Below are positions 5,699 to 50,068 of a DNA stretch of 64,000 bases, one piece after another. The stretch lies in NCBI GenBank assembly GCA_945874765.1, contig CAMCHQ010000012.1:1-64000 (forward strand). Reading direction: 5' to 3'. This stretch comes from an uncultured Clostridia bacterium. Lineage in GTDB: Bacteria > Bacillota > Clostridia > Oscillospirales > Acutalibacteraceae. A model generated the notes under the pieces. It saw only the letters and a program-made list of their open reading frames with translations. It had not been told where the DNA came from and did not search any database. A program made the translations under genes and the position numbers. Each line of letters begins with the position of its first letter. Within the stretch, counting starts at the first letter, position 1.

Positions 5699-5707
5699 AA
5701 TTTTCTC

Positions 5708-19420: not shown

Positions 19421-19421
19421 T

Positions 19422-27498: not shown

Positions 27499-27524
27499 AT
27501 TTTAAACAAGTCAGGGTGTATTTA

Positions 27525-28985
27525 ATGAATCAGCAAAGGCGTTTTCAAAGCGGCGCAGAGTTCATTATAAATTTAATATCTCTTTCGGCGGCGCACGCTG
27601 CTGCGCTCTTGGTTTTCGGTTTAATTATTCCGAGAATCCAGCATTATGAGCGATACGATAAGTTGGAATATGCAATCGTTTTGTTTCTTTCGGCGCTTAT
27701 CGTTTTCCTCTACTTCTCGGCTGAAATCAATTTATCCGTAAGAAACAGAGAATTTGAGCTTACTTCAACGCTTAAAAACTGTTTTCTGACTTACGGCTTA
27801 TTCGGCGTAATGCTGATTTTGACGAAGAACCCGATTATTGACTCACGTTATCTGTTTTTATCATCGTTCGCTTTTTACATAGCATTCTCGCTTTTGGGCA
27901 GATATGTATTCAAGCACTTTATGATAAAAAGAATTGCGAAAAGCAAGCTTGCGACAAGAGTGGGTGTTATTTCCACCTATGACAGAGCTTGTGAATTTAT
28001 ACCTAAGCTTAAAAAGAATTGGACAAATAATGTTACCGCCCTTGCACTTATTGACGCCGATTTCAACGAAAACGGTTTTGTGCTCAAAAACGGCGAGAGC
28101 ATTTTTGATATCGACGGTGTTCCGGTTGTAGCCAATATTGAAAGCATTATCGGCTGGATAAGAACGGCGTCGCTTGACGAGGTATACATAAACATTAAAT
28201 CAACATCTATGCTTCCGCAGCTAAGCGAGATTATCGAAGAGCTTGAGGATATGGGTATTACGGTAAACGTCAATATCCCCTCCCTTGAAAAAATTGTTAC
28301 GGAAAGTAAGTATAACAATTTAAGCTGCGTTGTAGAAAACGATTACCCCATGGCGCAATTTGCTCCTACTGTTATCAGTCCGGGTAAGCTTGCGCTTAAA
28401 AGGGTTTTCGATATTTTAGGCGGGATAGTCGGTACGGTTATATCACTCCCAATCATTTTAATCGTCGCTATTCCGCTTAAAATAGAATCTCCCGGTCCGC
28501 TTATTTTCAAACAGCAGAGAGTGGGCAAAAACGGAAGATTATTCAATATATATAAGCTTCGTTCAATGTATAAAGACGCTGAAGAGCGCAAAAAAGCACT
28601 GATGGAGCAAAACAAAATGGACGGTCATATGTTTAAAATGGACAATGACCCGAGAATTACAAAAGTCGGCAGATTTATAAGAAAAACAAGTATTGATGAG
28701 TTACCGCAGTTTTGGAATGTTTTAAAGGGCGATATGAGCCTTGTGGGAACAAGACCGCCTACGGTTGACGAGTTTGAGAAATACGAGAGCCACCACAAGC
28801 GCAGACTTTCAATGAAACCGGGTATCACGGGCAAATGGCAGGTATCGGGCAGAAGCGACATTCAGGATTTTGAAGAGGTTGTTAAGCTTGACTGCGAATA
28901 CATTGACGAGTGGTCGCCGTTTCTTGATATTCAGATTTTGTTTAAAACAGTCGGCGTTGTGCTCACCCATAAAGGTGCAGAATAG
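27525..28985 (+). CDS. Initiating undecaprenyl-phosphate sugar phosphotransferase
   Basis: Polyprenyl-phosphate hexose-1-phosphate transferase (WbaP/CpsE type) that attaches the first sugar of the repeat unit to the lipid carrier. The start ATG at 27525 lies 8 bp after AGGG; a GTG 9 bp upstream is less likely. Of 486 residues, about 1-130 hold four membrane helices, 140-250 a Rossmann-like segment, and 285-486 the bacterial sugar transferase domain. That domain begins KRVFDILGGIVG and contains FKQQRVGKNG, IDELPQFWNV and LVGTRPP. Which sugar is used cannot be read. Confidence 0.92.
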   Translation: MNQQRRFQSGAEFIINLISLSAAHAAALLVFGLIIPRIQHYERYDKLEYAIVLFLSALIVFLYFSAEINLSVRNREFELTSTLKNCFLTYGLFGVMLILTKNPIIDSRYLFLSSFAFYIAFSLLGRYVFKHFMIKRIAKSKLATRVGVISTYDRACEFIPKLKKNWTNNVTALALIDADFNENGFVLKNGESIFDIDGVPVVANIESIIGWIRTASLDEVYINIKSTSMLPQLSEIIEELEDMGITVNVNIPSLEKIVTESKYNNLSCVVENDYPMAQFAPTVISPGKLALKRVFDILGGIVGTVISLPIILIVAIPLKIESPGPLIFKQQRVGKNGRLFNIYKLRSMYKDAEERKKALMEQNKMDGHMFKMDNDPRITKVGRFIRKTSIDELPQFWNVLKGDMSLVGTRPPTVDEFEKYESHHKRRLSMKPGITGKWQVSGRSDIQDFEEVVKLDCEYIDEWSPFLDIQILFKTVGVVLTHKGAE

Positions 28986-29015
28986 ATTAGAAATTAATTA
29001 AGTCAGGTTTTAATT

Positions 29016-30134
29016 ATGAAAATTGCTATGTTCGGTCACAAGAGAATACCGTCGAGAGAGGGCGGCGTTGAAATAGTTGTCGAAGAGCTTGCAAAAAGAG
29101 AGGCGGCGCTCGGCAACGACGTTACCGTTTATAACAGAAAAGGTCATCACGTATCGGGCAGTAAGTTTGACAGCGATAATAAAAGCGATGATTTAAATGG
29201 CGTTAAAATTAAAACCGTTTTTACTTTTCAAAACAGCAAATTAAATGCAATAGTATATAGTTTCCTATCGGCGATAAGAGTAAGTTTTTCAAGATGTGAC
29301 GTTGTTCATATCCACGCCGAAGGTCCGGCTTCAATGTCCTTTTTGCCAAAACTTTTCGGCAAGAGGGTTGTTGTTACAATTCACGGTCTTGACTGGCAAA
29401 GGGCTAAATGGGGCGGTTTTGCGACAAGATTTTTAAAATACGGGGAGAGAAATGCGGCAAAGTACGCAGACGAGGTAATCGTTCTCTCAAAAAACGTTCA
29501 AAACTATTTTAAAGAAACGTACGGCAGGGACACTGTTTTTATTCCAAACGGCGTTGAAAGACCTGTAATAAAAAATGATGATGAAATAAATAAAAAATAC
29601 GGCTTAAAAAAGAACGACTACATATTGTTTCTCGGCAGGATAGTGCCCGAAAAGCAGGTTAAACTTCTTGTTGAGGCGTACAAGGCGCTTGATACAGATA
29701 AAAAGCTTGTCATTGCGGGCGGTGCAAGTCACACGGGCGATTATTTCGGCGAGGTTAAAGAATGTGCAAAAGGCTCAGACGATATTATCTTTACCGATTT
29801 TGTGCAGGGTGAAGTGCTTGAAGAGCTTTATTCAAATGCCTATGTTTACGTTTTGCCGAGTGATATTGAGGGTATGCCGTTAAGTCTTTTGGAAGCTATG
29901 AGTTATTCAAATTGTTGCCTTACCTCCGACATTGCGGAGTGCACAGAGGTTTGCGGTGAAAATGCGCTTTACTTCAAAAAAGGCGACAAAAAAGATTTGG
30001 AAAACAAGCTGACCTTTCTTCTTGAAAACGAAAATACTGTTCAAAAATACAAGGAAAAGGCGCAGGACTATATTTGCGGTAAATACAATTGGGACGATAT
30101 AACCGAAAAAACATTATCACTATATAAAAAGTAA
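29016..30134 (+). CDS. GT4-family glycosyltransferase (DUF1972 N-terminus)
   Basis: A cytosolic GT-B glycosyltransferase of 372 residues. The N-terminal half begins MKIAMFGHKRIPSREGGVE, as in the DUF1972 group that includes rhamnosyltransferases acting early in repeat-unit assembly. The C-terminal half has FLGRIVPEKQ and the nucleotide-sugar-binding EGMPLSLLEAM (E-x7-E type motif). It directly follows the initiating transferase gene, consistent with adding the second sugar. Sugar specificity is not deducible. Confidence 0.87.
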   Translation: MKIAMFGHKRIPSREGGVEIVVEELAKREAALGNDVTVYNRKGHHVSGSKFDSDNKSDDLNGVKIKTVFTFQNSKLNAIVYSFLSAIRVSFSRCDVVHIHAEGPASMSFLPKLFGKRVVVTIHGLDWQRAKWGGFATRFLKYGERNAAKYADEVIVLSKNVQNYFKETYGRDTVFIPNGVERPVIKNDDEINKKYGLKKNDYILFLGRIVPEKQVKLLVEAYKALDTDKKLVIAGGASHTGDYFGEVKECAKGSDDIIFTDFVQGEVLEELYSNAYVYVLPSDIEGMPLSLLEAMSYSNCCLTSDIAECTEVCGENALYFKKGDKKDLENKLTFLLENENTVQKYKEKAQDYICGKYNWDDITEKTLSLYKK

Positions 30135-30149
30135 CTCGGAGAGGCAGAT

Positions 30150-31334
30150 ATGAAAATTCTTATGGTAAATAAGTTTCTCTACCCAAACGGCGGTTCTGAA
30201 ACATATATGATCAAACTTGGCGCTTACCTTAAATCAATAGGTCACGAGGTTGAATATTTCGGTATGGAACACGAGGGCAGGATTGTGTCAAACAGCCTTG
30301 ACCTTTATACCGAAACTATGGATTTTCATAACAGTTCTGCATTAAAAAAGCTGAAACTTTCCCTTAAAACCGTTTATTCAAGGGAAGCGAGAAATAAGAT
30401 GAAAAGGCTTCTTGACGAATTTGAGCCTGACGTTGTTCATCTTAACAATTTCAATTTTCAGCTTACTCCGAGTATTATTTATGCCGTAAAAGATTATGAC
30501 AAAAGTCACAGTAAAAAAATAAAACTTATTTATACGGCGCACGATTTTCAGCTCGTCTGCCCTAACCATATGATGATGGACATTCACACAAATACTCCGT
30601 GTGAAAAATGCATAGGCGCAAAATTTAAAAACTGCACCAAAAACAAGTGCATACATAATTCGACATTAAAATCTTTTTTGGGTACGCTTGAAGCGGAAAT
30701 TTACAACAAAAACAAAATTTACTCGAGGATTGACAATATTATTTGTTGCAGTGAGTTTATGAAAAAAATGCTCGACACCAATCCTGCGTTTAAAAATAAA
30801 ACGGTTACATTGCACAATTTTATAGATAAAATCGAGCCAAAGAAAAGCGAAAAAGAGGACTATGTTCTCTATTTCGGCAGATTTGCAGAGGAAAAAGGAA
30901 TCGAAACTCTTATCGGGGCAAAAAATACAAACTTTATCTGCGCCGGTTCGGGTCCTCTTGAGGAAAAGGTAAACAGCGCCTCAAATTTGAAAAATATCGG
31001 ATTTAAGACGGGCAAGGAGCTTGAAGAACTTATTAGAAAAGCAAAATGCACGGTTTATCCAAGCATTTGGTATGAAAACTGTCCGTTTTCCGTTATGGAG
31101 AGCATTATGTATCAAACGCCTGTTATTGCGTCAAATATCGGCGGTATTCCCGAACTTATCGACGACGGCAAAACAGGATATCTTATCCCGCCGAATGACA
31201 GCAAGGCGCTTGAAGAGGCTATAAACAAATTAGACGGTGCCACGCTAAAAAATATGGTTGAAAACTGCTCAAAAAAAGAATTTGACACGGTTGAAACCTA
31301 CACAAAAAAGCTGATTGAAATATATAACGGGTAA
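30150..31334 (+). CDS. GT4-family glycosyltransferase
   Basis: A 394-residue GT-B enzyme. N-terminal donor-lid motif MVNKFLYPNGGSETYM and C-terminal YFGRFAEEKGIETL and ENCPFSVMESIMY fit GT4. In the middle (about 135-175) is a Cys-rich insert with CPNHMM, CEKCIGAKFKNC and KNKCI, common in this subgroup and perhaps metal binding. Separated from the previous gene by 15 bp with GGAGAGG before the ATG. Acceptor unknown. Confidence 0.87.
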   Translation: MKILMVNKFLYPNGGSETYMIKLGAYLKSIGHEVEYFGMEHEGRIVSNSLDLYTETMDFHNSSALKKLKLSLKTVYSREARNKMKRLLDEFEPDVVHLNNFNFQLTPSIIYAVKDYDKSHSKKIKLIYTAHDFQLVCPNHMMMDIHTNTPCEKCIGAKFKNCTKNKCIHNSTLKSFLGTLEAEIYNKNKIYSRIDNIICCSEFMKKMLDTNPAFKNKTVTLHNFIDKIEPKKSEKEDYVLYFGRFAEEKGIETLIGAKNTNFICAGSGPLEEKVNSASNLKNIGFKTGKELEELIRKAKCTVYPSIWYENCPFSVMESIMYQTPVIASNIGGIPELIDDGKTGYLIPPNDSKALEEAINKLDGATLKNMVENCSKKEFDTVETYTKKLIEIYNG

Positions 31335-31344
31335 GGGTGAAAAT

Positions 31345-32511
31345 ATGAAAAAACTTAACGGAACAGTAATAGTTACATACCGCTGCAACGCAAGGTGCAA
31401 TATGTGTAACAGGTATAAAAAGCCGTCAAAACCAGAGGAAGAGTTGACGGTTGAAACAATAAAGAAACTGCCTAAGATGTATTTTACAAATATCACGGGC
31501 GGTGAACCGTTTATCAGAGAAGATTTAGCCGATATCGTGCGTGAACTTTACAAAAAAAGCGACCGTATCGTTATATCTACAAACGGCTTTTTTACAGATA
31601 GGATTATCAAACTTTGCGAGGAATTTCCAAACGTAGGTATTCGTATTTCAATCGAGGGTTTGGAGGAGACGAACAATAAAATCCGTGGGCTTGAGGACGG
31701 TTTTAATAAAGGATATACCACGCTTAAAAAACTTGTTGAAATGAATCACCCTGACGTTGGGTTCGGTATGACGGTTCAGGACGAAAACGCAAAAGACCTT
31801 GTTGAGCTTTATAAACTGAGCGACAAGATGAATATGGAATTTGCGACGGCGTCGCTTCACAACTCATTTTATTTTGTTGAGGCTAAGAATATTATTAAAG
31901 ACAGACCTATGGTTGCAAAGGAATTTGAGAGGCTTATCAACGAGCTTTTGAAATCAAATTCGCCTAAAAAATGGTTTAGAGCATATTTCAACCACGGCTT
32001 AATCAATTACATATACGGTCAAAAAAGACTTTTGCCGTGCGATATGGCGTTTGACACGTTTTTCATTGACCCTTACGGCGACGTTATGCCTTGCAACGGT
32101 ACTAAAGAAAAAGAGGTTATGGGCAATCTCAACGAAACAAATTGGGACACTCTTTGGAACAGCGAGCAGGCGGACAAGGTAAGGGAAAAAATGCGCCACT
32201 GTGACAGGCAGTGCTGGATGATAGGCTCCGTTTCCCCCGCTATGCACAAATATATTTGGGTTCCTGCCACTTGGGTTATCAAGCACAAATTTCTCAGATT
32301 TTTCAAGGAAAGCAAATATTCAATGTATGAAAACAAAATCTGCCGTGATTACCGTGACGGCAAGGTTACGAAAGAGGAACTTGACAAGCTTTCCACCTGC
32401 GATATGAACGCTGAAATTAACGACGGTCTTTCAGAAAAATCGAGAGAACAGCTTAAAAATCGAACAGGCGAAGAAATTGTTGACGCCGATATTTCGGCTC
32501 AGCTCAAATAA
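31345..32511 (+). CDS. Radical SAM/SPASM-domain protein
   Basis: The start at MKKLNGT (31345) follows GGGTGAAA. The 388-residue product has the radical SAM cluster motif C-x3-C-x2-C (YRCNARCNMCNRY, residues about 14-21), the GGEP SAM-binding motif and a C-terminal SPASM-type region with CDMAFDTFF, MPCNGT and CDRQCW. SPASM proteins usually bind extra Fe-S clusters and modify peptides or sugars. Lying between two glycosyltransferase genes, it may dehydrogenate, epimerise or otherwise modify a sugar of the repeat unit, but no substrate can be inferred. The last 90 residues are a helical extension. Confidence 0.85.
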   Translation: MKKLNGTVIVTYRCNARCNMCNRYKKPSKPEEELTVETIKKLPKMYFTNITGGEPFIREDLADIVRELYKKSDRIVISTNGFFTDRIIKLCEEFPNVGIRISIEGLEETNNKIRGLEDGFNKGYTTLKKLVEMNHPDVGFGMTVQDENAKDLVELYKLSDKMNMEFATASLHNSFYFVEAKNIIKDRPMVAKEFERLINELLKSNSPKKWFRAYFNHGLINYIYGQKRLLPCDMAFDTFFIDPYGDVMPCNGTKEKEVMGNLNETNWDTLWNSEQADKVREKMRHCDRQCWMIGSVSPAMHKYIWVPATWVIKHKFLRFFKESKYSMYENKICRDYRDGKVTKEELDKLSTCDMNAEINDGLSEKSREQLKNRTGEEIVDADISAQLK

Positions 32512-32527
32512 ACAATCGGGTGAGAAA

Positions 32528-33742
32528 ATGAACATTCTTTTATCTGCATACAGCATTAACCCTTACAAAGGTTCCGAGGACGCTGTCGGCTGGAATTGGG
32601 TATTAACATTAAGTCAAAAACTACCAAACAGCACCATTTACATCTTGACCCGTACATACAATGAGGATGACACAAGAAAAGGCATTGAAGAATTCGGCTT
32701 AAAAAATGTCAAACTTATAATTGTTGAAGTTCCTAAAGCCCTTGACTGGTTTAGAGAGAAGCACTCGGCTTTTCACCACGCATACTATATTTTATGGCAA
32801 AAAGTTGCATATAATTGGGCAAAAAGCAGCGGCATTAAATTTGATGTAATTCATCATATTTCTATGGGTAATTACAGAATTACAGGACAAATGTATAAAA
32901 TTAAGGACGCTTACACTATTTTCGGTCCTGTAGGCGGAGGTCAAACGACTGCGCCTGCTCTTAGGTCATATTATAACAGCAACAAGCTTTATGAAAATTT
33001 CAGAAACAGCGTTAACAAAGCCTTTTCCAAATTTAACTTTTATAAAAAGCAAATCAATGCTTTTGACAAAGTTTATGCCGTTAATGACGAAACGAAGAAT
33101 GCGATTGAAACAGCGGTGAACATTAATTGCGAAAAGCTTTGTGACATTGCGATAAGCAAGGATATGCAAAACCTTGACATTCACCACGAAAATAATGACG
33201 AAGTTGAAATCATATATCTCGGCAGAATAATTGAACTTAAAGGCATTATGCTTTTAATTGATGTAATCAAAAATATCAAAACAGATAAAAAGTTTCACAT
33301 TTCCCTTTACGGCGAGGGCGAGCTTGAAGAACAGGCTCAGAGAAAGATTGACGAATACGGCATAAACGATTTAGTCACGCTTAAAGGCAAGGTTGATTAT
33401 ACCGAAATTGCAGACATTTACAAAAATGCGGACGCATTTGTTCACCCAACACTTAGGGACAGCAGTGGAGCGGTATTTGTTGAAGCTATGGCAAATAAGC
33501 TGCCTATAGTTGCGCTCAATCAAAGCCTTTCAAGGGATTTAAACGAGCATAAGTGCGGTCTTTTTGTTAACACCGAGCAATCAAAGGAAGAAATAATCAA
33601 CGAATTTGCTGGGAAGCTCAAAGAACTTATTGAAAATTATGATTTAAGAGTTAAGCTCGGTCAAAACGGATATGATTATGCTAACACTTATCTTACAATG
33701 GATTACAAATTTGACACCATTTATGGAAAGTTAATCAAATAA
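32528..33742 (+). CDS. GT4-family glycosyltransferase
   Basis: Start chosen at MNILLSAYSINPYKGSE (32528), following GGGTGAGA; the open frame extends upstream into the radical SAM gene but that part looks like shadow. The 404-residue protein has the GT4 N-terminal Rossmann start and the C-terminal motifs YLGRIIELKG, LYGEGELEE and DSSGAVFVEAMANKLP with the conserved Glu. A GVPVGGGQTT-like loop (FGPVGGGQTT) in the middle is typical of one GT4 subgroup. Sugar unknown. Confidence 0.87.
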   Translation: MNILLSAYSINPYKGSEDAVGWNWVLTLSQKLPNSTIYILTRTYNEDDTRKGIEEFGLKNVKLIIVEVPKALDWFREKHSAFHHAYYILWQKVAYNWAKSSGIKFDVIHHISMGNYRITGQMYKIKDAYTIFGPVGGGQTTAPALRSYYNSNKLYENFRNSVNKAFSKFNFYKKQINAFDKVYAVNDETKNAIETAVNINCEKLCDIAISKDMQNLDIHHENNDEVEIIYLGRIIELKGIMLLIDVIKNIKTDKKFHISLYGEGELEEQAQRKIDEYGINDLVTLKGKVDYTEIADIYKNADAFVHPTLRDSSGAVFVEAMANKLPIVALNQSLSRDLNEHKCGLFVNTEQSKEEIINEFAGKLKELIENYDLRVKLGQNGYDYANTYLTMDYKFDTIYGKLIK

Positions 33743-33750
33743 GAGGAAAT

Positions 33751-34836
33751 ATGGAAGTATTAATTGTAAACCCTATTCTTTATACGAACGAGAACAGGAA
33801 CATTAAAAAAGTTAATACAATTAAAGATACAATGATTTATGATTTGTGCTTGGCTTTTTTGAAAAAGGGGTGCGACGTCACACTTGCCGCTTCCGATTTA
33901 TATAAGCCGAGTGAGAACGAGAGCTATCCTTTTAATATTATTTGGATGAGGACAAGGCTTACAAAACTTTTTCCGCCGCACACTCTCCCCTACTGCCCAG
34001 AGGTTAAGAAAATCGCAAAATCAGGCAATTTTGATTTAATAATCACGAGCGAAGTATTTTCACTCAATTCTCTCAAATTAGCGCTTTGCACTCCGAAAAA
34101 TCTAATTGTTTGGCAAGAACTTGGTAAGCATAATCGTATTTTTCATGGGCTTGCTTCCAAATTTTGGTACGGCATTGTTGCAAAAATAGGATTTAAAAAA
34201 GCGCTTATTGTTGCAAGAAGCGTTCAGGCAAGGGAATTTATTTCAAAATATTGCAAAAATGTATCAGATACGATTATCGACCACGGCGTTAATATTGAAA
34301 AATTCACCCCTTGCAGAGAAAAAGACAATCAATTTGCTATAAGTTCTCAATTAATTTCAAGAAAGCATATTGAAAAATCGATTGAAGCCTTTGCAAAATA
34401 CTTAAATAAATATGACGACAGCGCAAAGCTTTATATAATGGGTGACGGCGATGAAAAGGAAAATTTGCGCAAACTTGCAAAAGACCTCGGCGCTGATAAA
34501 AATATTATTTTCACAGGTAAACTCGGCCACAACGAGCTTATTGAAATACTGAAAAAATCGATTGCTATGCTTGTTTATACTCAAAGTGATTTAAATATGG
34601 TGTCGATTGTGGAATCACTTTCACTTGCAACACCTGTAATAACAACATCCGTTCCCTACTGTTCATCATATATAGAAAGTGAAAGTCTCGGTATAGTCGA
34701 CGATAATTGGAATGAGGACGATTTAAGGCGGATTGCAACAAGTGATGAATATATAAATAACTGTATGAATTACAGAAAATACCTGCCGACAGAATATAAG
34801 GCGGAGCAGTTTTTAAAGGTTAAAGGACTTATTTGA
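33751..34836 (+). CDS. GT4-like glycosyltransferase
   Basis: A 361-residue GT-B protein. The N-terminal half is diverged (VNPILYTNENRNIKK), while the C-terminal half shows the GT4 order: SQLISRKHIEKSIEAF, YIMGDGDEKENL, FTGKLGHNELIEIL and the donor-binding NMVSIVESLSLATPV. Lower GC and more Asn/Lys/Ile than housekeeping genes, like the rest of the operon. The stop overlaps the next start (TGATG), so it is coupled to the DUF115 gene. Confidence 0.82.
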   Translation: MEVLIVNPILYTNENRNIKKVNTIKDTMIYDLCLAFLKKGCDVTLAASDLYKPSENESYPFNIIWMRTRLTKLFPPHTLPYCPEVKKIAKSGNFDLIITSEVFSLNSLKLALCTPKNLIVWQELGKHNRIFHGLASKFWYGIVAKIGFKKALIVARSVQAREFISKYCKNVSDTIIDHGVNIEKFTPCREKDNQFAISSQLISRKHIEKSIEAFAKYLNKYDDSAKLYIMGDGDEKENLRKLAKDLGADKNIIFTGKLGHNELIEILKKSIAMLVYTQSDLNMVSIVESLSLATPVITTSVPYCSSYIESESLGIVDDNWNEDDLRRIATSDEYINNCMNYRKYLPTEYKAEQFLKVKGLI

Positions 34837-35666
34837 TGAACACAAAGGACAAAATCTTAAAAATATTTGAGGGCAATCCTCTTTATGAAAATTTCAGACT
34901 CGGTTATTGGAGAATGAGAACAAGAAAATCGCAAAAAGAACTTGAAGAAAACGCAAAAAAACGAGCAAACGGCTTTGATGACCGGCAATTTTCAAGGCTT
35001 AAGGAATTTGAAAATAAATATAACGGTGAGCGTTGCTTTATAATTGCAACAGGTCCATCACTCACAATTGACGATCTTGAAAAATTAAAAGATGAATATA
35101 CCTTTGGCGTTAATTCAATAATCAAGCTTTTTGACGAAACGGATTTTAGACCTGATTTTTACGGAATACAGGACAAATTTGTCTACGGTGCCATGCAGGA
35201 CGTGATAAAAAGCACAAAATTTAAGACTGCCTTTTGTGCTGACATTATTGCAAAGGAATACGAGGTGCCGAGTGATTTTATACCTTTCCCTTACAACGGT
35301 GAATATCATCTTTATAATGGCAAGCCCGGCGAATACAATGCAAAATTCAGCGATAATGCCTACAATATAGTTTATGACGGTTATTCAATAACTTATTCTC
35401 TTATTGAAATTGCCGTTTATATGGGATTTAAGGAAATTTACCTTTTAGGCTGTGATTGCAGTTACCCCAAAGGCTCAAAAAGTCACGTGGTCGAAAGCGG
35501 ATTTGTTGACAAAAACGCTATGTCAAACCCTATAAGAATGAGGGTTGGATATCAATGTGCAAAAGAATATGCAGACAGTCACGGCATTAAAATCTACAAC
35601 GCTACACGTGGCGGTGAGCTTGAAACATTTGAAAGAGTAGATTTAGACGAGGTTTTAGCCAAATAA
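34836..35666 (+). CDS. DUF115/MptE-like protein, candidate CMP-ulosonate transferase
   Basis: A 276-residue protein (start ATG 34836, overlapping the previous stop; a TTG one codon earlier is possible). It has the DUF115 signature: a nucleotide-binding CFIIATGPSL (about 68-77), FGVNSIIKLF, the conserved GFKEIYLLGCDCSY and the terminal YNATRGGELETFERVDLDEVL-type segment. DUF115 is the domain of Maf flagellin glycosyltransferases, which use CMP-nonulosonic acids. The GPSL and KEIYLxGxD elements also recall GT42 sialyltransferases. Its gene is followed directly by a CMP-sugar synthetase gene, which supports a CMP-sugar-dependent transferase role. This is inference; automated pipelines would call it pterin kinase-like. 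Confidence 0.72.
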   Translation: MNTKDKILKIFEGNPLYENFRLGYWRMRTRKSQKELEENAKKRANGFDDRQFSRLKEFENKYNGERCFIIATGPSLTIDDLEKLKDEYTFGVNSIIKLFDETDFRPDFYGIQDKFVYGAMQDVIKSTKFKTAFCADIIAKEYEVPSDFIPFPYNGEYHLYNGKPGEYNAKFSDNAYNIVYDGYSITYSLIEIAVYMGFKEIYLLGCDCSYPKGSKSHVVESGFVDKNAMSNPIRMRVGYQCAKEYADSHGIKIYNATRGGELETFERVDLDEVLAK

Positions 35667-35685
35667 TAATATTGAGGAAAAAGAT

Positions 35686-36348
35686 ATGAAAAAAATTGTT
35701 GCAATAGTACCTATGAAGCTTAATAATCAAAGATTGCCGCAGAAAAACACAAAACCTTTTACAAACGGCAAACCTCTTTGCTACTATATACTTTCAACGC
35801 TTTTAAAGATTGAAAAAATTGATGAGGTATATGTATATTGCAGCAATGAAGAGATAAAAAAATACATACCAAACGGTGTAAAATATCTTAAAAGAAGCGA
35901 AAGTTTAGACCAAAACACCACCAAAATGAATGAAGTTTTAAAAGCATTTGCAAGCGACGTGCCGGCTGACGTTTATGTTATGACGCACACCACCGCTCCG
36001 TTCATATCAAAAGAGTCGATTGAAAAGGGGCTTGAAGCGGTGCTCGGCGGTGAATATGACTCTTCATTTGCGGCAAAGAAGCTTCAGGACTTTTTATGGA
36101 AAGACGGAAAGCCGTTTAACTACGAGCTTGACAATATTCCGAGAACGCAGGATTTAGAGCCTCTTTATGAGGAAACAAGCGGTTTTTACATTTACAATTC
36201 AAACGTTATAAAAAGCCTTAACAGACGTATCGGTGAAAAGCCGTATATAGTTGAGGTAAACGAAATCGAAGCAGTCGACATTGACGAAAAAGAAGATTTC
36301 CAAATTGCAGATGCGATTTATAACAGTCTTTATAAAATTGAGGGATAA
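35686..36348 (+). CDS. CMP-sugar synthetase (acylneuraminate cytidylyltransferase family)
   Basis: A 220-residue cytidylyltransferase that would couple CTP to a 2-keto sugar acid. The N-terminal nucleotide loop reads QRLPQKNTKPF (the R-x-P-x-K-N variant of the NeuA loop), followed by the THTTAPF strand, the EETSGFYIY segment and the metal-binding Asp pair in AVDIDEKEDF near the end. The family includes NeuA, KdsB-like and pseudaminate/legionaminate synthetases. No NeuB, NeuC or KdsA gene is nearby; instead the next gene is a pyruvate aldolase. AGGAAAAAG precedes the ATG. Confidence 0.87.
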   Translation: MKKIVAIVPMKLNNQRLPQKNTKPFTNGKPLCYYILSTLLKIEKIDEVYVYCSNEEIKKYIPNGVKYLKRSESLDQNTTKMNEVLKAFASDVPADVYVMTHTTAPFISKESIEKGLEAVLGGEYDSSFAAKKLQDFLWKDGKPFNYELDNIPRTQDLEPLYEETSGFYIYNSNVIKSLNRRIGEKPYIVEVNEIEAVDIDEKEDFQIADAIYNSLYKIEG

Positions 36349-36350
36349 TT

Positions 36351-37115
36351 ATGAAAGAAACCTTAAAAATTTTCAGAGATAAGTTAAATAATAACGAATT
36401 TGTGTACGGTCCTTTTATGAAAACAAGCGACCCTATGTTTGTTGAGGCGGTCGGTCTTGCAGGCTTTGACTACGTTATACTTGATATGGAGCACGGTCCC
36501 GTTACAATCGAAAATCAGCAAAATAACATTCGTGCGGCTGAGGCGAGAAATACCGTTCCTATTATAAGGCTTAAAGACAGGGGCGAAAACACAATCGGCA
36601 AGGCGCTTGATATCGGCGCTTACGGCATACAGGTACCGCAGATTAACAATGCCGAGGAAGCGAGAAACGTAGTTAAATTTGCAAAATTCTACCCTTACGG
36701 AATGAGAGGCGTTTGCAGATTTGTAAGAGCTGCCGACTATTCAAATTGCGACAGATACGAATTTTTTGAAAGCTCAAAGGACGTGCTCATTATTCTTCAG
36801 CTTGAAGGAATTAAAGCGATTGAAAATCTTGACGAAATACTTGACGTTGAGGGCGTTGATATCTTATTTATAGGACCTTACGACCTTTCGCAGTCGCTCG
36901 GCATTCCCGGTCAGGTAAATAACCCTGTTGTTGTAAACGCTATGAAAGATATTGTTGAGCGTGCAAAGGCAAAGGGCAAGGTTGTTGGCACATTCGTCGA
37001 TACGCCGCAGGATTTAAAAATGTGGAAAGAAATCGGCGTTCAGTATTTAAGCTACAGCGTTGATGTCGGCATTTTTATCGATGCGTGCAAGCAACTTAGA
37101 AAATCTTTTGAATAA
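36351..37115 (+). CDS. HpcH/HpaI-family class II pyruvate aldolase
   Basis: A 254-residue TIM-barrel aldolase of the 2-dehydro-3-deoxyglucarate/4-hydroxy-2-oxo-acid family, which condenses or cleaves pyruvate and an aldehyde. Visible are the catalytic His in LDMEHGP (H48), the Arg in PYGMRGV, the metal-site Glu in LQLEG and the Asp in FIGPYDLSQSLG. It starts 2 bp after the CMP-synthetase stop, so they are certainly co-expressed. Inside a polysaccharide operon, a degradative role is unlikely. Synthesis of a 3-deoxy-2-ulosonic acid for CMP activation is a coherent hypothesis. Confidence 0.9.
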   Translation: MKETLKIFRDKLNNNEFVYGPFMKTSDPMFVEAVGLAGFDYVILDMEHGPVTIENQQNNIRAAEARNTVPIIRLKDRGENTIGKALDIGAYGIQVPQINNAEEARNVVKFAKFYPYGMRGVCRFVRAADYSNCDRYEFFESSKDVLIILQLEGIKAIENLDEILDVEGVDILFIGPYDLSQSLGIPGQVNNPVVVNAMKDIVERAKAKGKVVGTFVDTPQDLKMWKEIGVQYLSYSVDVGIFIDACKQLRKSFE

Positions 37116-37135: not shown

Positions 37136-38404
37136 ATGGCACCAAAATTAACATTTAAACTATCCCTGCGTGAATTGATTTTTGCGTTTTTTATAGTATT
37201 ATTACCTTTCAGCTTATTTGCCGAATATCATACAAGTTGGAACGAAATAGCATACTGTGACGAGATACTATGTATTATCTGCATTATCTATACGCTTTAC
37301 TTTTCTTTTAAAAAAGGAATTAAGGGTAATGATTTAACACTTTTAATCCTTTTAATTGTTTGCTCGCTTATCACTTTCGTAGGTAATTTTGTAAGTAAAC
37401 TTATAACTTCTCCCCTGCCGATAATAGTTGACTTTATCTGCCTTGTTAAAATATTTATCGTATTTATTGTTTACAAGCAGGTTGCCGAGTACGACAAGAA
37501 AAAAAGAATGATACAATATCTTGTTCCGTTATCAAAACTTTTTATTTCAATTTCGACTCTTTGCGGCTTTATTTCCTTGTTTTTTAATATCGGAATGACA
37601 GGTAAAGATGTAAGATACGGTATTAACGAGTACTTTTTTGTATTCAATAATAGCTCACGATACGGCTTAATTGTTGCCTGCTGTTTTCTTATATTGCATT
37701 TTAGCAATTCATCGCCAAAGGAAATGCTGGCATACAAAATTATGACGGTATTTGACATGCTGCTAACAACAAAGGGCGTTGTTTACATAATATTGGTTGT
37801 TTATATTGTATTATCCTTTATTTGGAGAAGAAAAAAGGAAACTAAATTTACAACAGGTAATACATTAATTCTTTCAATATGCATCATGATTGCATCGACA
37901 CTGCAAATTAATACATATTTGCTTGACGAGGAATCGCCGAGAATGGTACTCCTGCGATACGGATTTAAAACAGCAAACAAATATCTGCCGTTTGGCTCCG
38001 GTTTTGCGACATACGGCTCTGATATGGCGGCAAGATATTATTCCGTTTTATATAAGCAATACGGTTTTACTAAAAGATACGGTCTTAATCAAACCTATGG
38101 TGCCTTTCTTAATGACTGCTATCTCGGAATGGTATTTGGTGAATTTGGTTATATTGGTGCGATAATCTTCTTTATTATGGTAGGCTTTGTTTTCGTTCCG
38201 ATTAACAAAATCACAATCAGTAAAGGAATAAAAATTCTTTCACTCAGTATATTTATAGCACTTATAATCAGCGCCATAGGCACAGCAATTATAAAATCAA
38301 GTATAGGCGTATTTGTTATGTGTGTTTTGGGTATGGTGTGCGGTTACGATACGGCATTTAAAAAAGCTGAAAATTCGGCAAAGAAAAGCATTGAAGAGGC
38401 TTGA
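37136..38404 (+). CDS. Wzy-like polysaccharide polymerase
   Basis: An integral membrane protein of 422 residues with about ten to twelve predicted helices and a large loop near residues 255-330 (with RYGFKTANKYLPFGSGFATYG), the layout and motif region of O-antigen ligase/polymerase family members. It would link repeat units on the outer membrane face. Its place just before the flippase gene supports this. Sequence conservation in Wzy is low, so the call rests on topology, loop and context. GTGGAG precedes the ATG. Confidence 0.8.
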   Translation: MAPKLTFKLSLRELIFAFFIVLLPFSLFAEYHTSWNEIAYCDEILCIICIIYTLYFSFKKGIKGNDLTLLILLIVCSLITFVGNFVSKLITSPLPIIVDFICLVKIFIVFIVYKQVAEYDKKKRMIQYLVPLSKLFISISTLCGFISLFFNIGMTGKDVRYGINEYFFVFNNSSRYGLIVACCFLILHFSNSSPKEMLAYKIMTVFDMLLTTKGVVYIILVVYIVLSFIWRRKKETKFTTGNTLILSICIMIASTLQINTYLLDEESPRMVLLRYGFKTANKYLPFGSGFATYGSDMAARYYSVLYKQYGFTKRYGLNQTYGAFLNDCYLGMVFGEFGYIGAIIFFIMVGFVFVPINKITISKGIKILSLSIFIALIISAIGTAIIKSSIGVFVMCVLGMVCGYDTAFKKAENSAKKSIEEA

Positions 38405-38413
38405 TAATAAAAT

Positions 38414-39859
38414 ATGGAAAAGCTGAAGAAATTAAAAACTAAATATTTTTCTCTCAGCGTTGCTGTTCGTGCAGCTGTTTGGTTTACATTTTGCAATTTA
38501 CTTCAAAAGGGCATTACAATGATATCAATGCCTATTTTTACAAGGCTTTTGACAACTGAGCAGTACGGCGAATTTACTGTTTATCAATCATGGTATTCAA
38601 TTATTAATATAATTGTCACTTTCAATTTATCAGGCAATTTAATACTAAACGGTATGTCAAAATACGAGAATCGGCGCAACGAATTTATTTCGTCAATTCA
38701 AACGCTTTCCTCTTGTATTACAATTTGTTTTTTTATTGCATATCTTATATTTCACAACTTTTTCAACCATATTTTTGGCCTTTCGACACTATTTATGGTT
38801 ACAATGTTTGCACAAATGCTTTTTGAACCTGCATATCTTTTTTGGTCGCAAAGGCAAAGATACGAATATAAATATAAAGGACTTGTTATTGTAACACTTA
38901 TAACTTCCTCTCTCGGTCCTATAATCGGTGTAATTGCCGTATTATCAACGCAATACAAAGCTGAGGCAAGGGTTATTTCATTTGCAATAGTTCAAATTTG
39001 TGCAGGTCTTATTTTTTACATAATTCAAAGTATTAGGGGCAAAACCTTTTTTAATAAAGAATTTTGGCGCTTTGCGCTTTCGTTTAGTATTCCGCTAATT
39101 CCACACTATTTATCGCAAATAGTTCTCGGTCAGTCTGACAGAATTATGATTGACAAAATGATAGGTGCAAGTGAGGCAGCGATATACGGCGTATCATATA
39201 ATTTAGCGGCAGTTATAACGCTTTTTGTAAATGCGATTAATAATTCTTTTGTGCCCACACTTTACGAAAGCCTTAAGAGTAAAAAATGTGAGAATATAAA
39301 AAAGGTTGCTGCATTTTTAGCAATATTTATGGCAGGACTTATATGTGTATTTATGCTTTTCGGGCCTGAAATATTGACTGTATTCGTTGCACCCGAATAT
39401 ATTAAAGCTAAGTGGATATTTCCTCCTGTTGCAGCTTCAATATTCTTTACATTCATTTATCTGTTTTACGTAAATGTTGAGTTTTACTTTGAAAAAACAA
39501 ATTATGTTATGTTCGTTTCTGTTTTTGGTGCAGTTGTAAATATTATTTTAAATTTAGTATTCATTAAAAAATACGGTTTTATCGCCGCAGGTTATACTAC
39601 TGTATTTTCATATTTAGTATTTTGCTTTGCGCATTATTTATTATATAAATACATTGCAAAAAAGGAAAAAACAGGAAATGTTTACAACGATGGCATATTT
39701 ATGATTTTAGGTATTGCAGTTTTAGCATTTATGCTTATTTGCATTCTCCTTTATAAATTCAACATAGTTCGATACATATTAATTGCCTTGATTGCGGTAT
39801 TTGCTGTTATATTTAGAAAGAAGCTTCTTTACGCCTTCAAAAAAGCATTAAATAAATAA
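38414..39859 (+). CDS. Wzx-like oligosaccharide flippase
   Basis: A 481-residue polytopic protein of the MOP/polysaccharide-transporter superfamily with about fourteen helices. The family N-terminus is visible: VWFTFCNLLQKGITMISMP, then FTRLLTTEQYGEFTVYQSW (the Y-G-x-Y/F-x-x-Y type motif). It would move lipid-linked repeat units across the membrane for the adjacent polymerase. Ten bases after the previous gene. The length is standard for Wzx. Confidence 0.92.
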   Translation: MEKLKKLKTKYFSLSVAVRAAVWFTFCNLLQKGITMISMPIFTRLLTTEQYGEFTVYQSWYSIINIIVTFNLSGNLILNGMSKYENRRNEFISSIQTLSSCITICFFIAYLIFHNFFNHIFGLSTLFMVTMFAQMLFEPAYLFWSQRQRYEYKYKGLVIVTLITSSLGPIIGVIAVLSTQYKAEARVISFAIVQICAGLIFYIIQSIRGKTFFNKEFWRFALSFSIPLIPHYLSQIVLGQSDRIMIDKMIGASEAAIYGVSYNLAAVITLFVNAINNSFVPTLYESLKSKKCENIKKVAAFLAIFMAGLICVFMLFGPEILTVFVAPEYIKAKWIFPPVAASIFFTFIYLFYVNVEFYFEKTNYVMFVSVFGAVVNIILNLVFIKKYGFIAAGYTTVFSYLVFCFAHYLLYKYIAKKEKTGNVYNDGIFMILGIAVLAFMLICILLYKFNIVRYILIALIAVFAVIFRKKLLYAFKKALNK

Positions 39860-39872
39860 CGAGGTATTAGCT

Positions 39873-40442
39873 ATGCTGATGATGTTTAAAGATATACTTC
39901 GCACGCTGATTTTTACATTGGTACCGGGTCTGATATTTGCTTTTTTAGTTATGTCTGCCTTGCCAACGTTTAAAAAATCAGGCTTTAAAAATACAATTAA
40001 AGGCTTTTTTAAAAGTCTGAAAAACAAAGACCGTCTGTTTTTGTTTTTACTGTTAATCTACTTTTTTATAGTTATATACAGAACTCTTTTTCAAAGGGAT
40101 TTCAGCTATAATCCGCTTTCAGAAGTTTTTGGCGGATGGAAAATTTTTAAAACACAATACACAGGGCTTGACTATCAGGTTATAGGCAATGTTGTGATGT
40201 TTTTACCTTTCGGCTTCTTATGGGCATTGTGCTTTGAAAGAAAACATAAATACGTCAGGGCTTTGCTTAATTCCACGCTTTCATCTTTAGCCTTTTCTGC
40301 TTTTATTGAGATAACACAGCTCATCTTTTCAAAAGGTACTTTTCAGTTTTCCGACATTGTTTACAACATGCTCGGCGGTTTGCTCGGCGCAGTAATTTTT
40401 GTAATAATCAAGTTAATAATATCAAAAAAGAGAAGCAAATAA
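39873..40442 (+). CDS. VanZ-like membrane protein
   Basis: A 189-residue protein with four to five transmembrane helices. VanZ-family marks are FIVIYRTLFQRDFSYNPLSE, the NVVMFLPFGFLWAL helix and the ending FSDIVYNMLGGLLGAVIF. VanZ-like proteins occur next to glycopeptide-resistance and polysaccharide genes; their biochemical role is unsettled. Last gene of the polysaccharide operon; its stop codon lies inside the loop of the terminator. Confidence 0.9.
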   Translation: MLMMFKDILRTLIFTLVPGLIFAFLVMSALPTFKKSGFKNTIKGFFKSLKNKDRLFLFLLLIYFFIVIYRTLFQRDFSYNPLSEVFGGWKIFKTQYTGLDYQVIGNVVMFLPFGFLWALCFERKHKYVRALLNSTLSSLAFSAFIEITQLIFSKGTFQFSDIVYNMLGGLLGAVIFVIIKLIISKKRSK

Positions 40443-46277: not shown

Positions 46278-47177
46278 TTAAAGACCTGTATTCTCTGCGA
46301 TATATTTTCTTGCCTTAAGTGCATATTCAAACGGATTAGCTTTTGCAGGGTCCTGCTCAGCCTCAACAACGACCCAGCCCTCATAGTCATTATCGGCAAG
46401 GATATCAAAAATCGGCTTGAAATCAACATCGCCGTCGCCCGGAACAGTGAACACGCCTGCTCTTACAGCGTCAAGAAATGACATATGATTAGGAACAACT
46501 TGATTGTTATAAACGTCCATTCTTACATCTTTAAGGTGAACGTGCTTAACACGGTTGATATACTTTTTCAAAACGGGAACAGGGTCGATACCGGCAAAGG
46601 TAAGGTGACCCGAATCGAAGAGAAGATAAACCAAATCAGGGTCGGTCATATCCATTAATTTATCAATTTCCTCAACTGTCTGAACGCCTGTACCCATATG
46701 GTGATGAACGGTAAAGTACATACCCTTCGACTTTGCATAAGCGCCCATTTCGTTAAAGCCCTTAGTAACAATTTCCCACTGCTCGTCGGTATAATATGGC
46801 TTTTCGTCAAGGATTGACTTATCAAGACAGCCTTGAATCGAATTGCCCTGCTCGGAAGCACCGATTACCTTAGCGCCGAGCTTATGAAGCATATCGCAAT
46901 GAGCCTTGAAAGCCTCGATTGTTTCCTCATAAGGCTTAGAGGTGAGATATGATGAAAACCAAGCGTTGCAAATCTGCAAGCCACGGATATCAAGATATTT
47001 TTTCAAAACGTCGGGGTCTTTAGGATATTTGTTACCCATTTCCGAACCCTTGAAGCCTGCAAGTGCCATTTCGCTTATGCACTGCTCAAATGTGTTTTCA
47101 CTGCCTAAATCGGGCATATCGTCATTAGTCCAGCCGATTGGTGCGATAGCAAGCTTTACTTTATCAGGATTAAGCAT
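46278..47177 (-). CDS. iolE: Myo-inosose-2 dehydratase
   Basis: TIM-barrel (xylose-isomerase-like) lyase that dehydrates scyllo-inosose (2-keto-myo-inositol) in the inositol pathway. The start [10 protein letters not shown] (47177) follows AAAGGT. The 299 residues include the family start [16 protein letters not shown], the [12 protein letters not shown] segment with metal-site His, [12 protein letters not shown] and VKHVHLKD. Third gene after iolG and iolD, in pathway-linked order. Kinase and isomerase steps are not encoded nearby. Confidence 0.93.
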
Positions 47178-47197
47178 ATTTATATTACCTTTCAAAA

Positions 47198-49051
47198 TTA
47201 ATAGTCAAATGTTTCTTTAATGTGCTTTTGCATATCGTCGTATGCCTTTGCAACTCTTTCACTCTTTGAAACTTCAGCAACGCCTACTCTCCACCAGGAC
47301 TCGAAGCCCGGCGTCATAGTCTTAGGCAAAACCTTGATATCAAAAAGACAGCTCTTAGTCTGCTTTTTAGCGTCTTTTAATGCCTCACGCAATTCGTTTG
47401 ACGTGCGAACAGTATAAGCCTTAGCGCCGTAACCCTCTGCAATCTTGGCAAAATCAACATCAATTTCATCACCGTCGAGCATACCCGTTACAGGATTTCT
47501 TGCTCTGAAAACAGTGCCGAATGTGTCTGTACCCTGATTGTTTTGGAGATTTTCGATACAGCCCCAACCCATATTATCAAAAAGACAAACGTTTATTTTA
47601 AGTCCTTCCTGCAAAGCGGTGTAAAGTTCACTGTGACCCATAAGAAACGAGCCGTCACCGCAGAAAGTGTAAACTTCGCTTTCAGGCTTAGCAAGTTTAG
47701 CGCCGAGAGCACCGTTTACCTCATAACCCATATTTGAGAAGCCGTATTCCATATGATATGTACCACGGTCTTTAGGTCTGAAAAGACGTTGCATATCGCC
47801 CGGAAGCGAACCTGCCGAGCCGAGTGCAATTGCGTCATCGTCCATAAATTCGTTAATTATACCGAGTGCAAGAGTTTGGTTAAGTCCGCCTTCAAGTTCT
47901 GTAGAATAATATTCGTCAACAATCTTATCCCACTCGGCTTTTGCATTTTTAATTTCGTCTTTATATTCACTCTTATAACCCTCGCAGGAAGAAATAAGAG
48001 CGGTGATTGCCTCTTTAGCGTCGGCAACAATAGCCTCGGCGTCCATTTTATAAGCGTCAAACGGGCAAACGTTGATACCCAAAACTTTTCTGTCCTCATT
48101 AAAGAGCCACTTTGAAGAAGTTGTAAAATCGGTAAAACGTGTGCCGACGCCGATAATAAGGTCAGCGTCTCTGCCGATAACGTTTGCAGCCTTACCGCCT
48201 GTAACACCGATACCGCCGACATTAAGCGGATTATCCCACTTAATGAGTCCCTTACCTGCCTGAGTTTCGGCAATAGGGATATTATATTTTGTTGCAAATT
48301 CAAGAAGCTCATTTTCAGCACCGCTGTATCTTACACCGCCGCCGCAAACGATGATAGGCTTTTTAGCTTCTTTAATAAGTTTGGTTGCACGTTCAAGCTG
48401 AGGTGCTGATATAGGACGTCTGTCAAGATGCCATACCCTCTTTTGAAGGAAATGTTCGGGATAATCATAAGCCTCACCCTCAACATCCTGAGGCATAGCA
48501 AGGCAGACAGCACCTGTATCGGCAGGGTCTGTAAGCACACGCATAGCGTTAATGCACGCAGTCATAAGCTGTTCGGGACGGAGTATTCTGTCAAAATAAT
48601 GGCAAACACCCTTGAATGCGTCCGTTACGGTTCTGCCGTAGTTATCAAAAAATTCAGCCTGCTGCAAAACAGGGTCCGGCTGACGGCAGGCAAAAGTATC
48701 GCCCGGCAAAACGAGAAGCGGAATTCTGTTAGCAGTTGCACAGCCGCAAGCGGTTACCATATTGGTAGCGCCCGGACCGATAGAAGATACACAGGGAATA
48801 ATAGCCTTTCTGTCCATCTGCTTTGCATAAGCGACAGCGGCAAGAGCCATATTCTGCTCATTTTTACCCTGATAAAATTTAAGATTATGACCGCCCTGCT
48901 CCAAAGCCTGACCGACGCCGACAACACAGCCGTGGCCGAAAATGCCGAACATACCGCTGACAAATTTTGTTTCAACACCGTCACATTCGATATACTGATT
49001 GTCGAGGAACTTAACAAGCGCCTGCGACATAGTAAGTCTTACTCTTTTCAT
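47198..49051 (-). CDS. iolD: 3D-(3,5/4)-trihydroxycyclohexane-1,2-dione hydrolase
   Basis: Thiamine-diphosphate enzyme that opens the ring of the diketo intermediate in inositol catabolism. At 617 residues it is close to family length. It has the N-terminal Pyr domain with GMFGIFGHG and the catalytic Glu in [10 protein letters not shown], a central domain, and the C-terminal PP domain with the ThDP motif [17 protein letters not shown] continuing to NVCLFDN. Between iolG (3 bp) and iolE (20 bp) in one operon. Confidence 0.95.
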
Positions 49052-49054
49052 AAA

Positions 49055-50068
49055 TTATGCCTCAATTTCAGAAAGTTTAACAGGTCTGTGCTCTGCAACG
49101 GAAAGTTTAGCAGCAAGACCTAAACGAAGCGCCTCAAGACCGTCATAAACAGTAGTCTTAGTCGGCTTATCGTTAATTACGCAGTCAATAAACTCTGTCA
49201 TCTCGTCAGTAAACGACTGCATATATCTTTCAAGGAAGAAGTAAAGCGGTTTATCGGTCATCTTACCTGTTTCGTCAATAAATGAAACGTTGGTAGGAGT
49301 GTCATTTGCGGCACTTGCCTGACCTTTACTGCCGAATACTTCAAGTCTTTGGTCATAACCGTAAGCAGCCTTACGGCAGTTATCGATTACACCGATTGCA
49401 CCGCTCTTGAATTTAAGAGCAACAAGTGCGGTATCAACGTCGCCTGCTTCACCGATTGCAGGGTCAACGGTAACTGCGGCATTGGCGTAAACCTCTTCAA
49501 CCTCACCGCCGATAAAACGAGCCATATCGAAATCGTGAACAGTCATATCAAGGAAGATACCGCCCGATACCTTAACGTAAGAGATTGGAGGCGGTTCAGG
49601 GTCACGTGAAGTTATTTTGATAGTCTGAAGCTCGCCGATTTTTCCTTTATTTTCAAGGTCTTTAATCTGGGCAAAGTTGTGGTCATAACGGCGGTTGAAA
49701 CCGATTTGAAGCTTAACACCTGCTTCGTCAACAGCCTTAATAACGTTCTTAATTTTAGCAACAGTCAAATCAACCGGCTTTTCGCAGAAAATATTTTTGC
49801 CTGCCTTAGCCGCTTCAACTGCTATATCTGCGTGCGTATCCGTTGATGAACAAATAAGCACTGCCTTAATTTCGGGATTGTTTAAAATCTCGTGATAATC
49901 TTCATAATAATTAGGAATACCAAGTTCCTCGGCTGCCTTCTTTGCACCCTCAACATAAATGTCGGAAATGGCAACAATTTCAGCCTGCGGAATATGGTAA
50001 GTAATTGATTTTGCGTGTACCTGACCGATACGGCCCGCACCGATGATACCAACCTTAAGTTTTTCCAT
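49055..50068 (-). CDS. iolG: Inositol 2-dehydrogenase
   Basis: NAD-dependent Gfo/Idh/MocA oxidoreductase of 337 residues converting myo-inositol to scyllo-inosose. The Rossmann motif GIIGAGRIGQVHAKSI (8-23), the EKPVDLT catalytic-lysine loop (about 95-101, with Lys in CEKP) and the DMTVHDFDMARF segment with the catalytic His are present. First gene of iolG-iolD-iolE. GAGGT stands before the ATG. Confidence 0.93.
   Translation of the reverse strand: MEKLKVGIIGAGRIGQVHAKSITYHIPQAEIVAISDIYVEGAKKAAEELGIPNYYEDYHEILNNPEIKAVLICSSTDTHADIAVEAAKAGKNIFCEKPVDLTVAKIKNVIKAVDEAGVKLQIGFNRRYDHNFAQIKDLENKGKIGELQTIKITSRDPEPPPISYVKVSGGIFLDMTVHDFDMARFIGGEVEEVYANAAVTVDPAIGEAGDVDTALVALKFKSGAIGVIDNCRKAAYGYDQRLEVFGSKGQASAANDTPTNVSFIDETGKMTDKPLYFFLERYMQSFTDEMTEFIDCVINDKPTKTTVYDGLEALRLGLAAKLSVAEHRPVKLSEIEA

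Follow-up and report, generated by a model that had tools for sequence, protein, structure and literature searches.

How might a cytidine monophosphate (CMP)-activated ulosonic acid be made in a bacterium whose polysaccharide cluster holds none of the enzymes that customarily build such sugars? The question is raised by three adjacent genes in a 64,000-nucleotide stretch of DNA from an uncultured Clostridia bacterium of the family Acutalibacteraceae (contig CAMCHQ010000012.1, positions 1 to 64,000; the whole stretch is referred to here as the window), which encode a DUF115 protein, a NeuA-like CMP-sugar synthetase and an HpcH/HpaI pyruvate aldolase. Genome-based predictions of sialic acids, 3-deoxy-D-manno-octulosonic acid (Kdo) and related sugars at present depend mostly on finding NeuB or KdsA, and no such phosphoenolpyruvate (PEP)-dependent synthase is encoded in the window's cluster. 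The original prediction, drawn from the letters of the window, was that the aldolase makes the ulosonic acid, the synthetase activates it and the DUF115 protein transfers it to a surface polysaccharide. Judged from sequence comparisons across related loci and genomes, a pathway of this kind is probable.

A recurrent cassette of three genes

The open reading frames (ORFs) and Pfam matches bear out the predicted adjacency of the three genes, with 2 bp between those for the synthetase and the aldolase and 19 bp between those for DUF115 and the synthetase, and all three proteins exceed the cut-offs of their Pfam families (Table 1). The ATG of the DUF115 gene overlaps the stop codon of the upstream glycosyltransferase gene (TGATG); an alternative start, TTG at 34833, lies three bases before this ATG at 34836 (ORF 34833-35666). 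In an NCBIfam scan none of the three proteins reaches the cut-off of any model that it matched. The synthetase (PF02348, 80.6 bits against a cut-off of 22.6) matches NeuA and KdsB structures by profile, and falls below the NCBIfam equivalog cut-off for PseF (71.2 against 205.7 bits) and the cut-offs of the KdsB models (22.5-39.8 against 193-281 bits). The aldolase (PF03328, 118.2 bits against 25) carries the catalytic and metal residues H48, R73, Q150, E152 and D178; these are invariant among eight cassette homologues and align to YfaU (2vws), a 2-keto-3-deoxy sugar aldolase. Characterised GarL, YfaU and HpaI enzymes carry out 2-keto-3-deoxy acid chemistry, and the window aldolase stays far under their NCBIfam equivalog cut-offs (best 171.9 against 393 bits).

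Table 1. Positions of the cassette genes and of the surrounding features in the window
Feature	Position	Strand	Support
DUF115/MptE-like protein, candidate CMP-ulosonic acid transferase (GT42/Maf-like)	34836..35666	+	PF01973 MptE-like 2.9e-18
CMP-sugar (ulosonate) synthetase, NeuA/PseF-like, distinct clade	35686..36348	+	PF02348 CTP_transf_3 1.9e-22
HpcH/HpaI class II pyruvate aldolase	36351..37115	+	PF03328 HpcH_HpaI 4.2e-34
Context upstream: glycosylphosphotransferase, glycosyltransferases, radical SAM/SPASM protein	27516..34836	+	
Polyprenyl glycosylphosphotransferase	27516-28985	+	TIGR03025 378 bits vs cut-off 296
Radical SAM/SPASM protein	31315-32511	+	Pfam family match
Context downstream: membrane protein (maybe polymerase), flippase, VanZ-like protein	37136..40442	+	

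A likeness of the DUF115 protein to Maf and GT42 proteins had also been proposed, and it holds: the protein is related to GT42 sialyltransferases and Maf by profile and fold, the sequence comparison giving a match to the CstII profile. The candidate counterpart of the general base of CstII, His188, is H218, which falls in a stretch of low confidence; 17 of the 26 proteins compared have His at this position and nine have Tyr. A Clostridium Maf is reported to use CMP-N-acetylneuraminic acid (CMP-Neu5Ac) and CMP-Kdo as donors (PMC11339370).

The synthetase was found at 46-100% identity in nine of 200 genomes of the same family (its own included), the next genome standing at 30%. In each of the other eight the next gene after the synthetase is for an HMGL-like aldolase, of the 4-hydroxy-2-oxovalerate type, rather than for HpcH (PF00682 was verified in three, and the rest were assigned via alignment, translation and our own profile). 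Seven of these aldolases have 523-542 residues and a second, C-terminal (CT) domain; the eighth, in L040, has 338 residues and is followed by a KdsC-type phosphatase. A single profile comparison (probability 93.8, E 1.7e-7) links the CT domain to DUF115; by sequence the domain has no significant match to a solved structure, and the fold search with a model of a fused HMGL protein covered its aldolase part.

When one genome per species was scanned with the nine aligned synthetases as the query, 290 relatives emerged; the 80 best of these were retained and come from Clostridia, Bacilli, Bacteroidales, Treponema, Azomonas and a Methanomethylophilus, whose synthetase sits on a 5 kb contig that may be contamination. 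Together with one relative from a viral contig, the window and the eight family loci, and less five duplicates, these make 85 distinct loci. A carbon-carbon-forming enzyme lies near the synthetase in 81 of them: an HMGL/DmpG-type aldolase in 72 (within three genes in 71, at four genes in L095), HpcH within three genes in eight (the window included) and NeuB within three genes in one. The aldolase of L038, masked in gene calling by a reverse-strand ORF, was entered by hand. Four loci (L077, L082, L099 and L107) have no HMGL, HpcH or NeuB near the synthetase, L082 lying at a contig end; a 295-residue neighbour in L077, considered as a DapA-type aldolase, does not resemble one by eye. In seven of the eight HpcH-type loci the HpcH gene stands immediately 3' of the synthetase gene, and in the eighth, L069, the two enzymes form a single protein of 508 residues. 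A DUF115 protein, a CT domain or a polysialyltransferase-like protein is encoded no more than three genes from the synthetase in 81 of the 85 loci, in 24 of these as the CT domain alone, and a GT99 domain is present at L106. The neighbourhood of synthetase and aldolase, recurring in 80 distinct loci of the synthetase clade, is not due to chance.

Two other arrangements were seen among these relatives. Two or three different CTP_transf_3-type synthetases stand side by side around the aldolase in L179 (5588-7743) and L069 (5998-8982), and on L128, an IMG/VR contig that may be host DNA, the synthetase is accompanied by an HMGL-type aldolase and a PfkB kinase. Phage records held no match to the synthetase.

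Seen from the aldolase, the association is close as well. In the window's genus the HpcH enzyme occurs at 77-100% identity in 5 of 37 genomes (its own included) and adjoins the synthetase in all five. Among 391 genomes from the class, an HpcH match of some kind turns up in 86, and eight (its own included) contain a full-length copy of at least 62% identity, a broken copy in one further genome being left uncounted. Four of these eight copies adjoin a synthetase, and the other four (L136-L139) have none within 1.5 kb. One of the latter (L138/L164, 62% identity) is flanked by a mannonate/galactonate-dehydratase-like gene, below equivalog cut-offs, and a short-chain dehydrogenase/reductase (SDR) gene, and beyond these by a PfkB gene resembling 2-keto-3-deoxygluconate (KDG) kinase, a gene of the 2-keto-3-deoxy-6-phosphogluconate (KDPG) aldolase family and an FGGY kinase gene; the gene content of this operon suggests metabolism of 2-keto-3-deoxy sugar acids, which are ulosonic acids. 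The other three lone copies have no obvious sugar-acid context by eye. A more distant, overlapping HpcH-synthetase pair (30% and 35% identical to the window's) on an Acuticoccus (alphaproteobacterial) plasmid, L187 5210-8371, precedes genes for a 2-hydroxyacid dehydrogenase and a HAD phosphatase, and is possibly a variant with a reduced product.

Exchange of the carbon-carbon-forming enzyme

In a tree of the 85 synthetases the eight HpcH-linked members lie among the 72 HMGL-linked ones, and the window synthetase is 81% identical to the HMGL-linked synthetase of L048; nearly the same synthetase therefore appears to be served by two aldolase families. Five changes of aldolase label are needed on this tree, and its strongly supported branches force just one or two. 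At least one aldolase swap is thereby shown at the level of sequence, and repeated swaps are not proved.

Synthetases of the same type, 55-59% identical, are also found in Azomonas (L112) and on two enterobacterial plasmids (L185 and L186), near a protein of 510-514 residues whose C-terminal half is NeuB and an inositol-monophosphatase-like gene (by annotation in L186). On the plasmids, the synthetase and the 514-residue NeuB protein are near insertion sequence (IS) elements (L185 5206-9911; L186 4176-8911). The N-terminal part of the NeuB protein of Azomonas and the enterobacteria looked DUF115-like by eye, and Pfam and profile comparison gave nothing significant for it. NeuB fusions of the Azomonas type were suspected in three other genomes; inspected by eye, these are NeuB proteins of another kind that carry a C-terminal extension. 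Two have a more distant synthetase nearby, and none of the three adjoins one closely related to the window's.

Within the window's own family, three loci whose synthetases fall outside the window's clade present a series of gene orders. L176 encodes DUF115, a KdsB-type synthetase, KdsA, KdsD and KdsC; L177 encodes DUF115, a synthetase, KdsA, one unassigned ORF and KdsC; and L178 encodes DUF115, a KdsB-type synthetase, an HMGL aldolase, a GT8 glycosyltransferase and KdsC. In L176 and L177 the KdsA proteins score above the cut-offs of two models, and KdsC was assigned by our own profile. Among 21 distant same-family synthetases, eight have an HMGL aldolase in their flanks (up to 1.5 kb), none has HpcH, and three have a NeuB-profile match there, two of them weak. 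Two of those eight synthetases were scanned against the KdsB equivalog TIGR00466; L171 is above its cut-off and L178 is one bit under. Because of the NeuB loci of Azomonas and the plasmids, the L176-L178 series and the flanks of these 21 synthetases, the aldolases are read as occupying the place of KdsA or NeuB.

The proposed pathway and its alternatives

In the pathway proposed here, the HpcH/HpaI aldolase would add pyruvate, in the form of its metal-bound enolate, to a sugar aldehyde and so form a 3-deoxy-2-ulosonic acid. The adjoining synthetase would convert this with cytidine triphosphate (CTP) to the CMP-ulosonic acid, and the DUF115 protein, acting as a transferase of the GT42/Maf type, would add the ulosonic acid to the repeat unit of the cluster's surface polysaccharide. 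Activation by CTP would pull the reversible aldol reaction toward synthesis. The direction of the reaction, the donor and the transfer are what we infer here. The chain length can be weighted roughly. Six carbons are a tentative first choice, suggested by the sugar-acid operon of a relative and by KDG-kinase-like neighbours; eight are nearly as likely, since the HMGL type pairs with KdsB-type synthetases; nine are slightly less likely, and are suggested by NeuB pairings; any other length is unlikely.

One observation weighs against this pathway. The window's genome, which is 99% complete and has no KdsA match, does encode a single NeuB on another contig (C6:49057-49779). An ordinary PEP-dependent synthase such as this one, or scavenged sialic acid, might thus feed the synthetase, leaving the aldolase incidental or engaged in degrading surplus keto-acid; genes of the NanA family and NanE stand in the same window, and NeuB above 100 bits is present in 18 of the 59 cassette genomes searched. 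However, the C6 NeuB has a CMP-synthetase of its own, fused to a KdsC-like phosphatase and encoded by the very next gene; this fusion is 31% identical to the window synthetase, and the two genes (L032 10974-13021) appear to be a second, separate ulosonic acid operon of the same genome. KdsA above its cut-off occurs in five of the 59 genomes, and 38 have neither a strong NeuB nor KdsA, although the genomes reached through named loci lack a stated completeness and single absences among them may be gaps. These 38 include all eight same-family genomes (93-100% complete), six of the eight HpcH-type genomes (the window's own is one of the eight) and the cultured Lactimicrobium massiliense, Ruminococcus flavefaciens Y1, Sporolactobacillus spathodeae, Anaerostipes butyraticus and Niameybacter massiliensis. 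At Pfam's own cut-off (22.1 bits) NeuB would match 40 of the 59; 32 weak matches (23.7-47.5 bits), each coinciding with a sub-cut-off KdsA match of 95-132 bits, were read as probable 3-deoxy-D-arabino-heptulosonate 7-phosphate (DAHP) synthase and scored as absent. With these absences, and with aldolases neighbouring the synthetase in 80 of 85 loci, one of them as a fusion, supply from a PEP-dependent synthase is unlikely, as is scavenging, at which no search was aimed.

It is equally improbable that the synthetase activates a product other than a 3-deoxy-2-ulosonic acid, such as a hydroxy acid or phosphorylated small molecule to which the aldolase and an oxidoreductase would both contribute. 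Such a product would fit the 2-hydroxyacid dehydrogenase 3' of the Acuticoccus pair, an annotated oxidoreductase 3' of the synthetase in Gemmobacter, and the scores of the window synthetase and other scanned clade members, which are below the NCBIfam cut-offs of the synthetase models matched; but the presence of the same synthetase type beside NeuB in Azomonas and the two plasmids, and of HMGL aldolases beside KdsB-type synthetases, points to ulosonic acids. Least probable of all is a catabolic aldolase whose substrate is a keto-deoxy acid and whose place in the cluster is accidental. Aldol reactions are reversible and the HpcH relative L164 belongs to a sugar-acid operon, yet HpcH is directly 3' of or fused to the synthetase in every HpcH-type locus, and by eye no sugar-acid dehydratase or kinase stands beside the window's cassette.

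There is reason, then, to retain the aldolase-synthetase-DUF115 pathway. The pairing, the fusion, NeuB or (with a KdsB-type synthetase) KdsA in the same slot elsewhere, the 38 genomes and the GT42/Maf homology all speak for it, and lend the original prediction partial support. Its premise of no NeuB or KdsA was right for the window and too broad for the genome. With slightly less assurance, we lean to a wider reading as well, in which a third route to CMP-ulosonic acids is widespread. On this view, pyruvate aldolases of the HMGL/DmpG type, most of them with a fused DUF115-like domain, and of the HpcH/HpaI family, in one case fused to the synthetase, would replace KdsA or NeuB in cassettes for surface polysaccharides among Clostridia, Bacilli, Bacteroidales and Treponema, and perhaps in one archaeon.

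Surroundings and known systems

The cassette sits within a surface-polysaccharide cluster. Upstream, the genes at 31315, 32477 and 33751 belong by Pfam to glycosyltransferase and radical SAM families, and those at 29016 and 30150 were assigned by eye; the radical SAM/SPASM protein recurs four genes 5' of the synthetase in five loci. Downstream, the membrane protein, which matches no Pfam or NCBIfam model, may be the polymerase, and homologues of the genes at 37136 and 38414 recur near the cassette at other loci. About 30 kb from the cassette, an aldolase of the dihydrodipicolinate synthase (DHDPS)/NanA family and NanE, of the N-acetylmannosamine 6-phosphate (ManNAc-6-P) epimerase family (4796-6403, minus strand), probably serve sialic acid catabolism. 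Also on the minus strand, and by eye, the genes at 46278-50068 resemble those of myo-inositol catabolism (IolE, IolD and IolG types), and 15446-19429 encodes a leucine-rich-repeat-like protein of 1327 residues with a possible fibronectin-like C-terminal stretch.

Each part of the cassette belongs to a known family; what would be new is that an aldolase stands in for a PEP-dependent synthase in making a CMP-activated sugar. The open-access literature searched, which lacks most subscription journals and all bioRxiv preprints, gave no report of CMP-ulosonate synthesis by way of an aldolase. If the pathway is real, many gut and rumen bacteria scored as being without such sugars would possess them, and the cassettes would supply reversible, PEP-free enzymes for rare keto-acid sugars.

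The window aldolase shares its Pfam family and catalytic residues with GarL, YfaU and HpaI, and differs from them in falling under the equivalog cut-offs and in standing in a biosynthetic cluster. The HMGL-type enzymes depart from DmpG (4-hydroxy-2-oxovalerate aldolases) and 3dxi in having Tyr for His after the LRDG motif, and in the extra CT domain related to DUF115 by profile. With Maf and the GT42 sialyltransferases the window DUF115 protein has the PF01973 domain, the fold and the CstII profile match in common, but it is a stand-alone protein of 277 residues in a polysaccharide cluster. Unlike the Kdo pathway (KdsD-KdsA-KdsC-KdsB), the window has a pyruvate-type aldolase for PEP-dependent KdsA, a NeuA-like rather than a KdsB-type synthetase, and no KdsD or KdsC adjoining the cassette; the two share a sequence of reactions, from carbon-carbon bond formation through an optional phosphatase to CMP activation and transfer, and at L176 and L177, in the window's bacterial family, the Kdo genes too are accompanied by a DUF115 protein that the same profile matches. 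The NeuB-NeuA pathway of nonulosonic acids is similar in that the window synthetase belongs to the NeuA/PseF superfamily and its type sits beside NeuB in Azomonas and on two plasmids, whereas in the window's cluster an aldolase stands in NeuB's place.

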